A DNA stretch of 64,000 bases from Candidatus Peregrinibacteria bacterium Gr01-1014_25 (GTDB lineage Bacteria > Patescibacteriota > Gracilibacteria > Peribacterales > Peribacteraceae), in NCBI GenBank assembly GCA_007376205.1, contig VMFU01000005.1, positions 1-64,000 of the forward strand. Direction: 5' to 3'. Under the pieces are notes generated by a model, which saw only the letters and a list, made by a program, of their open reading frames with translations, ran no database searches and was not told the origin of the DNA. The position numbers were made by a program, and so were the translations under genes. Shown piece after piece: positions 17,097 to 33,522 of this stretch (position 1 is the first letter of the stretch; every line of letters begins with the position of its first letter).

Positions 17097-17261
17097 GCCA
17101 CTTTCTTTGTCACCACACAAAGAAAGTAGCCAAAGAAAAGTCTCCGCCGTCTGACGTTCCAGCCGGGCATGAGGAAGAAGGAAAGGACGTGGAACCATCG
17201 TGTATGGATGGAAAGCACGCTGGTCCCTTCGGGACCCCTACGGGGCCGCGCGACGGCGGGG
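17097..17261 (-). repeat. Structured intergenic repeat, copy A (165 bp)
   Basis: One of three near-identical 162-165 bp copies (others at 30438-30602 and 33310-33471). Read on the minus strand it begins CCCCGCCGTCGCGCGG, contains the hairpin GGTCCC-TTC-GGGACC (about 17221-17236), continues through GGAACGTCAGACGGCGGAGA, and ends in a 12-bp hairpin built from TACTTTCTTTGT and ACAAAGAAAGTG. CCGCCGTC near the 5' end is complementary to GACGGCGG near the 3' end, so the whole unit could fold as one closed structure. It lies in the largest gene-free stretch of the window (17031-17343), which also holds the YtxH-like gene's TATACT box and nothing else recognisable. Confidence 0.88.
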
Positions 17262-17343
17262 AAATGACAGCGCAATGACGACTCTCAATGTCACACACAT
17301 ACTGGTATATGGGTGATCTACGGCAGAGCCCTTCCGAAGGGAA

Positions 17344-19773
17344 TCACTGAAGATGCTCCCGCAATGCCTTCAGTTGTCCGGCGTTCACGATGCGCAGCAA
17401 TTCGTCATCCGCCGCGGCGCGCACGCCGTCGACCGAACCGAAGCGCCGCAGAAGCTCGCGGCGGGTCGTCGGGCCAATGCCGGGCACGGTGTCGAGCGTC
17501 GAACGGACAGCGGCCGTTTTGGCCCGTCGCTCGCGGTGTCGGTTCGCGAAGCGGTGGGCTTCGTCGCGCAGCCGTTGGAGAAGGAAACGCGCCGGCGCAT
17601 CGGGCGGAAGTGCCACCGGCTCGCTGCTGCCGGGCACGAAGATCTCCTCCTCACGCTTGGCGAGGCTGGCGACGGAAATCGTCAGCCCAAGGGATGCGAG
17701 CACATCCACCGCCACGCCGAGCTGCCCCTTGCCGCCGTCGATGAGCAGAAGGTCGGGCATCGCCGAGAGCGAGGCATCCGTCTTGTGTTGCGCGGCGTCG
17801 TAGACCAAAACCGTACGCCGGAGGACATTGGGGTCCACACTGCACGCCTCGGCCAGCATCTTCTGGAAGAGCGGCGGATCTTTCAGTATATGCCGGAAGC
17901 CGATGTCGGCGTAGTACGCCTCCAGCTGGGGAACGACGCGCACGTAGATCTTGCCCTTCGTTTTCGACAAAAGCAGACGGGCAAGGACATGACCCAGCTT
18001 CTTGCCGCGCAGCGCGGGGTCGATCCAGAGTCCCGACATTTCCTGCAGCCCCCCTTCGTGCGTTCGCAGTCGCACGCACCCGATGATCGCATCATTCCTG
18101 CGCGCCACAAGGAATGAACGGTATTCGATGTCTTTGCGCGATAATTCCGCCTCGGACGCGAGAATCTCTTCCAGTCGCCCCTGCTCGGCTTTGCGCGCCT
18201 TGCCGAAGGTCACGCCGGCCGCGCCCCACTGCTCGGTGTCCCGCCGCACTCCTCCCGCAAGGTGCCGCAATCGCCGCGTGAGCACTTCGCGCAGCGAGCG
18301 GTAATCGTCGACGTCGCCCCTGGCGACGCTTTGCACGGTGAAGGAGCGATACTGGTCGTTGGCCGCCTTGCCGCCGAGCAGGACGACCATGCTCCCGACG
18401 GTCTCGGTGCCGCCGAGGTGGGAGATGTCGTACCCCTCGATGCGCCGCGGCGGTTTTTGGAGTCCGAGGACGCTCTGCAGCTGGCCCAGAGCATCGTCGA
18501 CGTTGCGCGATTCGGACTCCCACTTCGCCTCCATGTGCCGCGCCTTCTCGTGGGCGTTCTTCTCGGCGAGCATCAGGAGCTTCGATTTTTCCCCGCGCTC
18601 GGGCACGCGCAAATGCACGGCACGTCCGGCGCGCTCGCGGAGCCACGTTTCGATGAGCGTGCGGTCGCCGGGCTCCTCGCCCAGGATGATGAGCGGCGGG
18701 ATCTCCGGCACGTCGGCGTAGTACTGCGGCAGGAACGACGTGAGCGCATCGCGGACATCGGTCACCTGCCCCTGGAGCGCGAAGCTCGCATCGTCGACGA
18801 GGCGGCCGTCGCGGCGGCGGAACACGACGACGTGCGCGCGGCCGGAGAGGACGGCCACGCCGATCACGTCCGCATCCTCGCCCGATGCATCGGAGATCAG
18901 CTGCTTCTCCTGCAGACGCTCGATCGTCTGGAGCTGATCGCGGATCGCGGCGGCGCGCTCGAACTGCCGCGCGGCGACGGCTTGCGCCATCTGCTCCTTG
19001 AGCACCGCCGTGACCGCGGCGTGATCGCCACGCAGGAACTTCAGCACGGGATCGATCGCGCACGACCGGTACTCCTCCGGCGTCACCGCGCCGATGCATG
19101 GCGCGCAGCATTGGCCGATGTGGTGATCGAGACACGGTGTCGCACGGTCTTTGTTCTTGCACACCACCTCGATGGGGATCCGCTGCCCGCTTGCCCCTCG
19201 AAGCCTTGGCGAAGTGGGGCTGCTCGCTTGCCCCTCGAAGCCTTGGCGAAGTGGGGCTGTCCGCTGCCCCATTTCTATCGTCATCCTGCACGTCCGAAAC
19301 GGGAAGAACCGCCGGAGATTGGCCAGAGTTTCCCGTACGTCGCCCGCGCTCGTCTTGGGACCGATGTACTCGGACTGGTCGTCCTCGACCTTGCGCACGA
19401 CATCGATGCGGGGAAAGGGATCCTGGGTCGTGACCTGGACGTAGACGTAGTTCTTGTCGTCCTTCATCAGGATGTTGTACTTGGGACGGTGCTCTTTAAT
19501 GAGATTCGTCTCGAGGAGGTACGCCTCCAGTTCCGTCTGCGTGACGGTGATGTCCACGTCGCGCGTCGCGCGCAGCATCGCCTGCTTCCACGGCCCGTGC
19601 GTCTTCCATGCCGCCGGCGCGACGTAACTGCGAAGCCGGTCGCGCAGGTTCTTCGCCTTGCCAATGTAAAGCACCACGCCGTCCTCATTCAGCCACCGGT
19701 AGACGCCCGGCCCCGTCGAGGCCTTGGCGACGCGCGTACGGAGCTGCCGAAGGTGATCGGGGGCATCCGCCAT
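17344..19773 (-). CDS. uvrC: UvrC excinuclease with GNAT-like domain inserted in the nuclease region
   Basis: UvrC makes both incisions around a DNA lesion with UvrAB. The start MADAPDHLRQ gives 809 residues, about 200 more than usual. Order: GIY-YIG nuclease (GPGVYRWLNEDGVVLYIGKA, about 21-40), a repeat-derived insert (about 169-198), the cysteine cluster region, a UVR motif (ARQFERAAAIRDQLQ, about 268-282), and the RNase H-like nuclease. That domain is split: GYDISHLGGTETVGS and YRSLREVLTRRLRHL come first, then about 163 extra residues (about 509-671), then PDLLLIDGGKGQLG and a C-terminal HhH pair (TVPGIGPTTRRELL). The extra block reads as a GNAT acetyltransferase: LWIDPALRGKKLGHVLARLL and AYYADIGFRHI. 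TACACT (19783-19788) nearly touches the start. Confidence 0.93.
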   Translation of the reverse strand: MADAPDHLRQLRTRVAKASTGPGVYRWLNEDGVVLYIGKAKNLRDRLRSYVAPAAWKTHGPWKQAMLRATRDVDITVTQTELEAYLLETNLIKEHRPKYNILMKDDKNYVYVQVTTQDPFPRIDVVRKVEDDQSEYIGPKTSAGDVRETLANLRRFFPFRTCRMTIEMGQRTAPLRQGFEGQASSPTSPRLRGASGQRIPIEVVCKNKDRATPCLDHHIGQCCAPCIGAVTPEEYRSCAIDPVLKFLRGDHAAVTAVLKEQMAQAVAARQFERAAAIRDQLQTIERLQEKQLISDASGEDADVIGVAVLSGRAHVVVFRRRDGRLVDDASFALQGQVTDVRDALTSFLPQYYADVPEIPPLIILGEEPGDRTLIETWLRERAGRAVHLRVPERGEKSKLLMLAEKNAHEKARHMEAKWESESRNVDDALGQLQSVLGLQKPPRRIEGYDISHLGGTETVGSMVVLLGGKAANDQYRSFTVQSVARGDVDDYRSLREVLTRRLRHLAGGVRRDTEQWGAAGVTFGKARKAEQGRLEEILASEAELSRKDIEYRSFLVARRNDAIIGCVRLRTHEGGLQEMSGLWIDPALRGKKLGHVLARLLLSKTKGKIYVRVVPQLEAYYADIGFRHILKDPPLFQKMLAEACSVDPNVLRRTVLVYDAAQHKTDASLSAMPDLLLIDGGKGQLGVAVDVLASLGLTISVASLAKREEEIFVPGSSEPVALPPDAPARFLLQRLRDEAHRFANRHRERRAKTAAVRSTLDTVPGIGPTTRRELLRRFGSVDGVRAAADDELLRIVNAGQLKALREHLQ
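19181..19270 (-). repeat. Coding-sequence repeat, copies 2 and 3 in tandem (inside uvrC)
   Basis: Two head-to-tail copies of the core CCTTGGCGAAGTGGGGC, about 33 bases apart and therefore in different reading frames relative to the unit. They are translated as TAPLRQGFEGQAS and SPTSPRLRGASGQR. The uvrC frame is kept open through both. The block lies in the linker between the GIY-YIG domain and the cysteine cluster, where UvrC proteins vary in length. Confidence 0.9.
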
Positions 19774-19795
19774 TCGCGCTATAGTGTAGCTGCAT

Positions 19796-19840
19796 CCTCG
19801 GTTTCCTTGGTTGCTTTGGTTTCCTTCGTTTCGTTCGTTC
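19796..19840. repeat. Degenerate short-word repeat between uvrC and the GT2 gene
   Basis: A pyrimidine-biased run made of variants of GGTTGCTTTGGTTTCCTT. It resembles the patch at 31066-31131 (TTGGTTGCCTTGGTTTCC). It sits in the 72-base divergent gap between the uvrC and glycosyltransferase starts. Confidence 0.65.
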
Positions 19841-19845
19841 CCCCC

Positions 19846-20688
19846 GTGACTTTGGCCTCTGCATCCGTCTCCGCCATCGTGCTGAATTACCGCACTCCGC
19901 GGTACGTCCTCGCGTGCGTGGAAGCGTTGCGACGAGCGGGCGGCCCCACTTCGCCAAGGCTTCGAGGGGCAAGCGGACAGCGGACAGCGATGGAAATCTT
20001 CGTCATCGACAACCACTCCTGCGACGAGTCGATCCAGTGGATCCGCAATCGCCTGCGCGACGATCCGCAGGTACGCATCATCGAATCCCCTCTCAATCGC
20101 GGCTACGCGGGGGGGAACGCGATGGGCATCCGCCGGGCGCGCGGGACGTATCTGCTCATCATCAATCCCGACAACGCGCTGCAGCCGGGCGCACTGGAGA
20201 AGATGGTCGCGCTCATGGAAACGAACCCCGACATCGGGATCGTGGCCCCCAAGCTCCTCCACGAAGACGGCACGGTGCGGGATTCCGTCCGACGCTTTCC
20301 CTCTCCCATCGACGTTCTGCTCAAACGCTCCTTCCTGCAGCGCATCTTCCCCGGACGCGTGCGGCGGTACCTCGCCCTGGACGAGGACGCGAACCGCCAG
20401 CGCGACGTCGATTGGGCCGTCGGCGCCTGCTTGCTAATTCGGCAGGGCCTCTACGAGGAACTCGGTGGATTCGACGAGCGCTTCTTCCTTTTCTTCGAGG
20501 ACATGGATCTGTGCCGCCGGTGCTGGCAAACCGGAAAGAGGGTCGTCTACCTGCCGTCCGCGGTCGCAACGGACCGCAAGACGCGTTTGAGCGAGGGGGG
20601 GGCTCTGTCCCTGCTCCTCAAACGCGCCGGCCGCGAGCACCTCAAAAGCGCCGTGCGGTACTTCTGGAAGTGGAGGAAAGGGCGCTAA
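19846..20688 (+). CDS. Family 2 glycosyltransferase (rhamnosyltransferase-like)
   Basis: From the GTG start (VTLASASVSAIVLNY) the protein has 280 residues. It has a GT-A fold: SAIVLNYRTPRYVLAC, nucleotide-binding EIFVIDNHSCDES, NRGYAGGNAMGIRRA, DxD-like LLIINPDNALQPGA, and the acceptor-side GGFDERFFLFFEDMDLCRR. This matches GT2 enzymes that add deoxyhexoses to surface glycans, acting at the inner membrane. Residues 32-47 are a repeat-derived insertion (PTSPRLRGASGQR) between the first helix and the second strand. The alternative start is TTG two codons on. No clear Shine-Dalgarno sequence. Confidence 0.85.
   Translation: MTLASASVSAIVLNYRTPRYVLACVEALRRAGGPTSPRLRGASGQRTAMEIFVIDNHSCDESIQWIRNRLRDDPQVRIIESPLNRGYAGGNAMGIRRARGTYLLIINPDNALQPGALEKMVALMETNPDIGIVAPKLLHEDGTVRDSVRRFPSPIDVLLKRSFLQRIFPGRVRRYLALDEDANRQRDVDWAVGACLLIRQGLYEELGGFDERFFLFFEDMDLCRRCWQTGKRVVYLPSAVATDRKTRLSEGGALSLLLKRAGREHLKSAVRYFWKWRKGR
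19943..19988 (+). repeat. Coding-sequence repeat, copy 4 (inside the GT2 gene)
   Basis: Core GCCCCACTTCGCCAAGG on the plus strand, in the same direction and frame relative to the host gene as the pyrD copy. It is translated as PTSPRLRGASGQR. A short direct duplication GCGGACA follows at its 3' edge. Confidence 0.88.
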
Positions 20689-30418: not shown

Positions 30419-30602
30419 GTCCGCCGCCACAATCCCTCCCCGCCGTCGCGCGGCCCCGTAGGGGTCCCGAAGGGACCAGCTTTCTCAACGCACATACACG
30501 GTCGTTCCACGTCCTTTTCGATTGCCCAATGCCCGGCTGGGACGTCAGACGGCGGAGACTTTTCTTTTGCCACTTTCTTTGTGTGGTGACAAAGAAAGTG
30601 GC
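30419..30602 (+). repeat. Structured intergenic repeat, copy B
   Basis: The 165-bp core spans 30438-30602, with a short extension GTCCGCCGCCACA shared only with copy C. It carries the hairpin GGTCCC-GAA-GGGACC, the complementary pair CCGCCGTC / GACGGCGG, and a perfect 12-bp end hairpin CACTTTCTTTGT / ACAAAGAAAGTG. It is oriented like both flanking genes. In this copy both hairpin arms carry the matching base where copies A and C have one mismatch. Confidence 0.88.
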
Positions 30603-30614
30603 AAAGGGTAGGTC

Positions 30615-33289: not shown

Positions 33290-33471
33290 GTCCGCCGCCA
33301 CAGTCTTTACCCCGCCGTCGCGCGGCCCGCAGGGTCCCGAAGGGACCAGCGTGCTCTGCGTCCGAAACCGTCGACCACGTCCTTTCCTTACTTCCCAATG
33401 CCCGGCTGGAACGTCAGACGGCGGAGACTTTTCTTTGGCTACTTTCTTTGTGTGGTGACAAAGAAAGTGGC
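33290..33471 (+). repeat. Structured intergenic repeat, copy C
   Basis: The 162-bp core (33310-33471) has three bases fewer than copies A and B, within CCCGCAGGGTCCCGAAGGGA. It keeps the end-to-end complementarity CCGCCGTC / GACGGCGG and the terminal CTTTCTTTG hairpin. The leading extension GTCCGCCGCCACA is shared with copy B. It is oriented with the flanking genes. Confidence 0.88.
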
Positions 33472-33522
33472 GAATGAAGAAGGTAGAGAAATCACGCTCT
33501 GTAACAACCCCCGCATTCTCGC

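Follow-up and report, generated by a model that had tools for sequence, protein, structure and literature searches.

A GNAT-fold domain inserted in the RNase H-like nuclease domain of UvrC from Peregrinibacteria, at a loop where other enzyme domains are also found

UvrC is a near-universal repair nuclease. In the window, the whole stretch of 64,000 nucleotides from Candidatus Peregrinibacteria bacterium Gr01-1014_25 that we analyzed, its 5'-incision domain is split by about 165 residues with the hallmarks of a GNAT acetyltransferase. The computational analyses document this architecture together with its ancient origin, the re-use of the same site by other domains, purifying selection on the insert, and the retention or loss of the GNAT motif. 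We consider it reasonably probable that the loop between helix α1 and strand β4 of the RNase H-like domain is a permissive docking loop that captures enzyme domains, the GNAT domain being an old and retained module.

The host genome consists of 12 contigs with a total of 1.12 Mb, and its closest named kin are Candidatus Peregrinibacteria and Candidatus Peribacter. Peregrinibacteria are minute bacteria that are not in culture. The uvrC gene lies in one continuous open reading frame on the minus strand (17344-20262), in which we assigned the following features:

17347-19773, minus strand: uvrC coding region of 809 amino acids, a complete ORF with its start (MADAPDHL) at 19773 and its stop codon at 17344-17346
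19474-19707, minus strand: GIY-YIG nuclease domain for 3' incision, residues 23-100 (PF01541, E 1.1e-10)
19171-19270, minus strand: separate insertion of ~33 amino acids, residues 169-201, made of two tandem in-frame copies of a dispersed palindromic repeat
18262-18444, minus strand: RNase H-like 5'-incision domain, first part (β1-β3, α1), residues 444-504, with catalytic D449 (PF08459; DSSP of the model)
17758-18261, minus strand: inserted GNAT domain, residues 505-672 (Pfam, AF2, Foldseek and motif alignment)
17533-17757, minus strand: RNase H-like domain, part after the insert, with D679 and H740 (PF08459; alignment to 2nrt)
17359-17499, minus strand: C-terminal helix-hairpin-helix DNA-binding region, residues 759-805 (PF14520, E 7.6e-6; model helices)

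The protein scores 486 bits against NCBIfam TIGR00194 (cut-off 285) and contains the GIY-YIG domain, the Cys-rich and UVR motifs, the RNase H-like domain and the HhH region, the PF14520 match of the last being slightly below the cut-off (26.8 bits against 27). The GIY-YIG residues Y25, Y36, R46, E83 and N90 are kept in at least 90% of 61 relatives, and the RNase H-like catalytic residues D449, D679 and H740, which align to those of 2nrt, are invariant among them. UvrA and UvrB are encoded as well, and no second UvrC is present in the genome. By its domains, its catalytic residues and the uvrA/uvrB context, the window protein is a UvrC excinuclease with predicted dual incision. In some lineages of the class uvrC reads through many TGA codons, as is expected for Gracilibacteria-type bacteria.

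The smaller insertion, located between the GIY-YIG and Cys-rich regions, is of a different nature. It is derived from a 37-nt palindromic repeat with the core CCTCGAAGCCTTGGCGAAG, which has 15 matches in the genome (0 for a reversed-pattern control), often as tandem pairs 37 nt apart, and which also occurs in the window at 1034-1086 and 19935-19987. Residues 173-195 have a pLDDT below 50 and are predicted to be disordered. Such an in-frame palindromic repeat is reminiscent of the Rickettsia palindromic elements; a phage similarity search with the repeat-bearing stretch gave no match. In addition, a 166-nt inverted repeat pair of 88% identity (17097-17262 and 30437-30602) and an 81-nt direct repeat with an inner hairpin (CACTTTCTTTGT...ACAAAGAAAGTG; 30525-30605 and 33394-33474) make up a second dispersed repeat family.

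The large insert is a folded domain. The RNase H-like part breaks off after YRSLREVLTRRLRH and restarts at PDLLLIDGGKGQLG, and the PF08459 match is accordingly split in two pieces around residues 505-672. The sequence-only reading had described a block of about 163 residues at 509-671, equivalent to these boundaries, in an unbroken frame, and had proposed a GNAT identity for it; both hold, as the frame is continuous and three Pfam models (Acetyltransf_7, _10 and _1) match the insert over their cut-offs, with E ~1e-7 in the protein and 3e-8 for the insert alone. A whole-genome scan likewise placed a PF00583 match of 33.9 bits in the insert, and 53-55 of 58 inserts of relatives match GNAT models on their own (E 0.01). 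AlphaFold2 predicted a GNAT fold for the insert alone with a pLDDT of 94.7 (58 homologous inserts), which rules out disordered filler. In the full-length model, where pLDDT is ~82-96 by block, the module is again confidently folded and sits between helix 490-506 (α1) and strand 675-679 (β4), the latter ending in catalytic D679. The best solved Foldseek matches of the insert are of the N-acetylglutamate synthase/ArgA type, with Naa50 and GCN5 lower in the ranking (probability 1.00, TM 0.5-0.65). The window insert retains the motif residues, namely the acetyl-CoA loop R589-G-K-K-L-G594, Y610, Y620/Y621, G625 and F626 (YYADIGF); its RGKKLG agrees with the pyrophosphate-binding motif [RQ]-x-x-G/x-x-[GA], with Lys in place of the first Gly. 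Sequence models, predicted fold and motif together assign the insert to the GNAT superfamily, with acetyl transfer as a predicted activity. Pfam scans of the protein and of the insert gave no Hint or intein match, and an intein was therefore rejected.

To place the insert in context, we measured the gap between the two RNase H-like halves with profile HMMs for the two flanks. The gap is 3-39 residues in 70 UvrCs that represent Chloroflexota, Clostridia, Rokubacteria and other groups, ~4 residues in the UvrC of T. maritima (2nrt), and 141-179 residues in six named Peregrinibacteria. The insertion is found throughout the Peregrinibacteria part of the class, with ~80 distinct window-type inserts in ~20 family codes, and the block occupies the identical site in ~20 genera of the window's family and in many other families. 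This identical junction in many independent genomes, shared also by the GenBank contigs L125-L130, rules out an assembly chimera. Among 332 sampled genomes of the phylum, only one outside the class (G218) had a GNAT in UvrC. When 153 genomes were scanned with an insert-free UvrC, most matches from outside the class were contiguous; none of the other UvrC ORFs listed from there had a large insert at this position. With the 70 controls at 3-39 residues and G218 alone outside the class, a general bacterial or phylum-wide feature is ruled out; the long ORFs with GNAT matches in G424 and G463 are not UvrC. The G218 protein (L212), from another class of the phylum, carries a window-type GNAT, and by its UvrC core it joins the window's family (support 80), a possible case of whole-gene transfer.

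The domain is also absent from a few relatives (L091, L093 and L100). Within the window's family, L091 and L093 are without it and L092 has just 87 residues; the linkers of the three end in KPDRSFS, KPDVSLI and HRSDPSLS. Since these linkers resemble the KxDxSF tail of the domain, the three look like losses. The inserts of f17 (L103), f28 (L111) and Ca. Peribacter are too diverged for a GNAT call by sequence.

We then compared the history of the insert with that of its host protein. A tree built from the UvrC core without the insert gathers the GNAT-bearing proteins in a single large group, which the three insert-free proteins interrupt; the sister lineages f6 and the TGA-recoded f22, as well as L090 (f8) and L111 (f28), are unresolved at its edge. 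At least six changes separate the window-type GNAT from all else on this tree, the rooting of which, like the single origin of the main GNAT, depends on weakly supported deep branches. Insert and core distances are correlated (Mantel r 0.66; 0 of 999 permutations as high), as expected for descent. Superimposed on this are signs of exchange. L019 matches its genus mates L047 and L048 at ~70-100% in most core windows and at 22-56% in the insert, and its insert is nearest that of L012 from another genus (56%; core 53%). The insert tree pairs L012 with L019 and L016 with L035 (SH-aLRT 98-99), and the core rejects the grouping of L012 and L019 (p-AU 7e-71). Exchange of inserts within the window's family is thus likely, though short of proven because AU tests on the insert alone did not reject the groupings of the core (p 0.25 and 0.15). 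Silent-site divergence rises inside the insert from 0.50 to 0.82 between L043 and L125; between L032 and L041 it shows no such jump, and rapid protein change suffices.

In two further families, the sister family f6 and f8, other enzymes occupy the same α1-β4 site, with the frame uninterrupted:

GNAT type B: L110, L205, L206 and L291, in three genera (L291 assigned by eye)
GNAT type C: L109
Aminoglycoside-adenylyltransferase-like nucleotidyltransferase: L105 (PF10706, E 2e-6)
DUF559 endonuclease-like domain: L106 (PF04480, E 8e-35)
Serine (α/β-) hydrolase: L090, f8 (PF06821, E 8e-12)

The independence of the type C GNAT from the window type is uncertain because generic GNATs look alike. The hydrolase, nucleotidyltransferase and DUF559 cases come from one metagenome-assembled genome each, and their catalytic motifs were recognized by eye (THSIGG, HEDFD and EIDGIQH, respectively). 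Close relatives of the replacement cases have an ordinary linker of 11-14 residues: the site is empty in L207 and holds the nucleotidyltransferase in L105, both of which are coded as genus g29. The 314-residue insert of L089 matches GNAT models in its first half and is GNAT-like in its second, an apparent tandem duplicate of the module. The DUF559 domain of L106 is flanked by LPLLLGEGGGEV and SPHPDPLPEGEG in low-complexity linker that looks like translated dispersed repeats, and the insert of L020 contains the similar LPSPVATGEGSGVRAE; repeats may help to capture domains.

The cofactor site has decayed in part of the inserts. Scoring the acetyl-CoA loop leniently ([RQ]-x4-[GA]) in aligned columns, we found it intact in 58 of 82 inserts, that is, in 54 of the 78 of window type after setting aside four GNATs of f6, and nearly all of these 54 retain the Y-x4-GF segment. 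The other 24 have lost the loop, mostly at a still GNAT-like length. Because the degenerate inserts of f26 and f5 can be aligned to the GNAT family over the full length of the domain (hhalign, 99%), the fold outlives the motif. The dN/dS of the insert, estimable in 12 of 19 pairs, is 0.04-0.38, with values for degenerate inserts of 0.19 (f26), 0.30 (f5) and 0.17 (Peribacter). The insert is under purifying selection, the tested degenerate pairs included. These ratios, with the conserved catalytic residues of both nucleases, speak against a pseudogene or a relaxed passenger.

According to the explanation that we favor, a complete GNAT gene segment would have been captured in frame at the α1-β4 loop in the ancestor of most Peregrinibacteria and inherited since, with occasional loss, degeneration and exchange, and different enzymes would have been captured at this loop in the sister lineages. 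From the fold topology we infer that the loop, at the start of β4, lies away from the catalytic ends of the strands; because of this position, the nuclease is expected to work normally with the module off its side. Acetyl-CoA should still be bound by the module in the window protein and in about two thirds of its relatives, and there the module may transfer acetyl groups to UvrC itself, to partners of UvrC, or to a small molecule; the other third would carry a pseudo-acetyltransferase, acting through shape or contacts alone. The most economical common function is non-catalytic: the module would offer a surface for contacts with protein or DNA and so adjust the recruitment of UvrC or its incision, acetyl-CoA binding being a ligand-dependent addition in the majority. 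Such a shared role is likelier than obligatory acetylation because a third of the inserts have lost the cofactor loop and the sisters carry other enzymes. The window lineage has probably kept acetyl-CoA binding and perhaps acetyl transfer as well. The built-in modification or cofactor-sensing activity proposed from the sequence alone is thus plausible for this protein, with RGKKLG and YYADIGF intact, but cannot serve as a general explanation, given the constrained inserts without the loop and the unrelated enzymes of the sisters. That proposal had the layout and the GNAT right and missed the ancient, class-wide presence and the re-use of the site.

Other explanations were weighed. A bolder reading, which we consider possible but less likely than not, makes the loop an exchangeable cassette site, where whole enzymes (GNATs at least twice, a serine hydrolase, a nucleotidyltransferase and a DUF559 nuclease) would be captured in frame and swapped between species independently of the core, and would tie the nuclease of 5' incision to acetyl-CoA or to further ligands. 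It is unlikely that the domain is an active acetyltransferase or acetyl-CoA sensor whose catalysis controls nucleotide excision repair, say through acetylation of UvrC, of UvrB or of proteins bound to DNA at the incision site, with the motif-less inserts as secondary degenerations. The loop of the 54 window-type inserts, nearly always with Y-x4-GF, the acetyl-CoA-bound ArgA, Naa50 and GCN5 as top structural matches, and the strong constraint in close pairs all suit this view; however, the 24 inserts without the loop are mostly of GNAT length and constrained in the pairs tested, unrelated enzymes hold the site elsewhere, and L091, L093 and L100 have no insert.

Less likely still is a neutral passenger: the loop would simply put up with inserts, and genes captured there would remain and decay while giving UvrC no advantage. 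Varied domains at one site, losses, degeneration and the apparent tandem duplicate speak for it, but the insert has a dN/dS far under 1 even where it is degenerate (f26, f5, Peribacter), part of which a folding constraint could explain, and it has been kept across the entire class, with a folded-domain length in most degenerate copies. A mobile or homing-type in-frame element, comparable to inteins and homing endonucleases, with DUF559 as the nuclease form and the other domains as cargo, is very improbable. The DUF559 nuclease domain between low-complexity linkers in L106 and the two discordant pairs of the insert tree, one of which the core rejects, speak for it, but the majority of inserts are not nucleases, the Pfam scans contain no intein domain, the AU tests on the insert alone do not reject the core grouping, and a non-systematic look revealed no terminal repeats. 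With the junction shared among independent genomes and GenBank contigs, we assign a negligible probability to an assembly chimera or annotation artefact. The docking loop with an old, retained GNAT module is our preferred reading.

From a class-wide GNAT within the 5' nuclease, and from the different enzymes that replace it at this loop, it would follow that UvrC is able to take up plug-in modules; the pattern points to a docking site, so far undescribed, through which this enzyme gains additional functions. The natural UvrCs with, without and with swapped domains offer a way to ask if acetyl-CoA or contacts between proteins are what repair is linked to. A loop able to accommodate a folded domain of 165 residues would also help in building tags or sensors into UvrC. 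How UvrC becomes activated is an open question (PMC7835731). As in the sequence-only reading, which knew of no such layout, we found no published description of a UvrC with a GNAT insert in the open-licence literature; acetyltransferases are absent from the 2006 survey of GIY-YIG and UvrC architectures (PMC1564403), and Uvr genes go unmentioned in the Peribacteria genome paper.

Orthodox UvrC, of which T. maritima 2nrt is an example (domain table in PMC1564403), comprises GIY-YIG, Cys-rich, UvrB-binding, RNase H/EndoV-like and HhH regions. The window protein has the full standard set of domains in the usual order, with their catalytic residues, whereas the orthodox proteins are without the ~165-residue GNAT between α1 and β4. 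The insert has the fold, the R-G-x-x-L-G loop and the Y-x4-GF segment in common with GNATs of the ArgA/NAGS and ElaA types (3d2p, 5yge, 5yo2, 5z6n); it differs from them in its identity of 15-20% (Foldseek), in an extra N-terminal helix, and in a C-terminal segment that ends in KxDxSF and leads the chain back to β4 of UvrC. A lineage-specific insertion in UvrC is also known from Deinococcus as a signature indel of 16 amino acids (PMC5867870), which is a short loop in contrast to the folded enzyme domain described here. Domains are likewise inserted in the RNase H-like fold of PARN (R3H) and of Hermes, and α1-β4 insertions are relatively rare in this superfamily (PMC3985635); unlike those cases, the α1-β4 position of UvrC takes several unrelated enzyme domains in related lineages.
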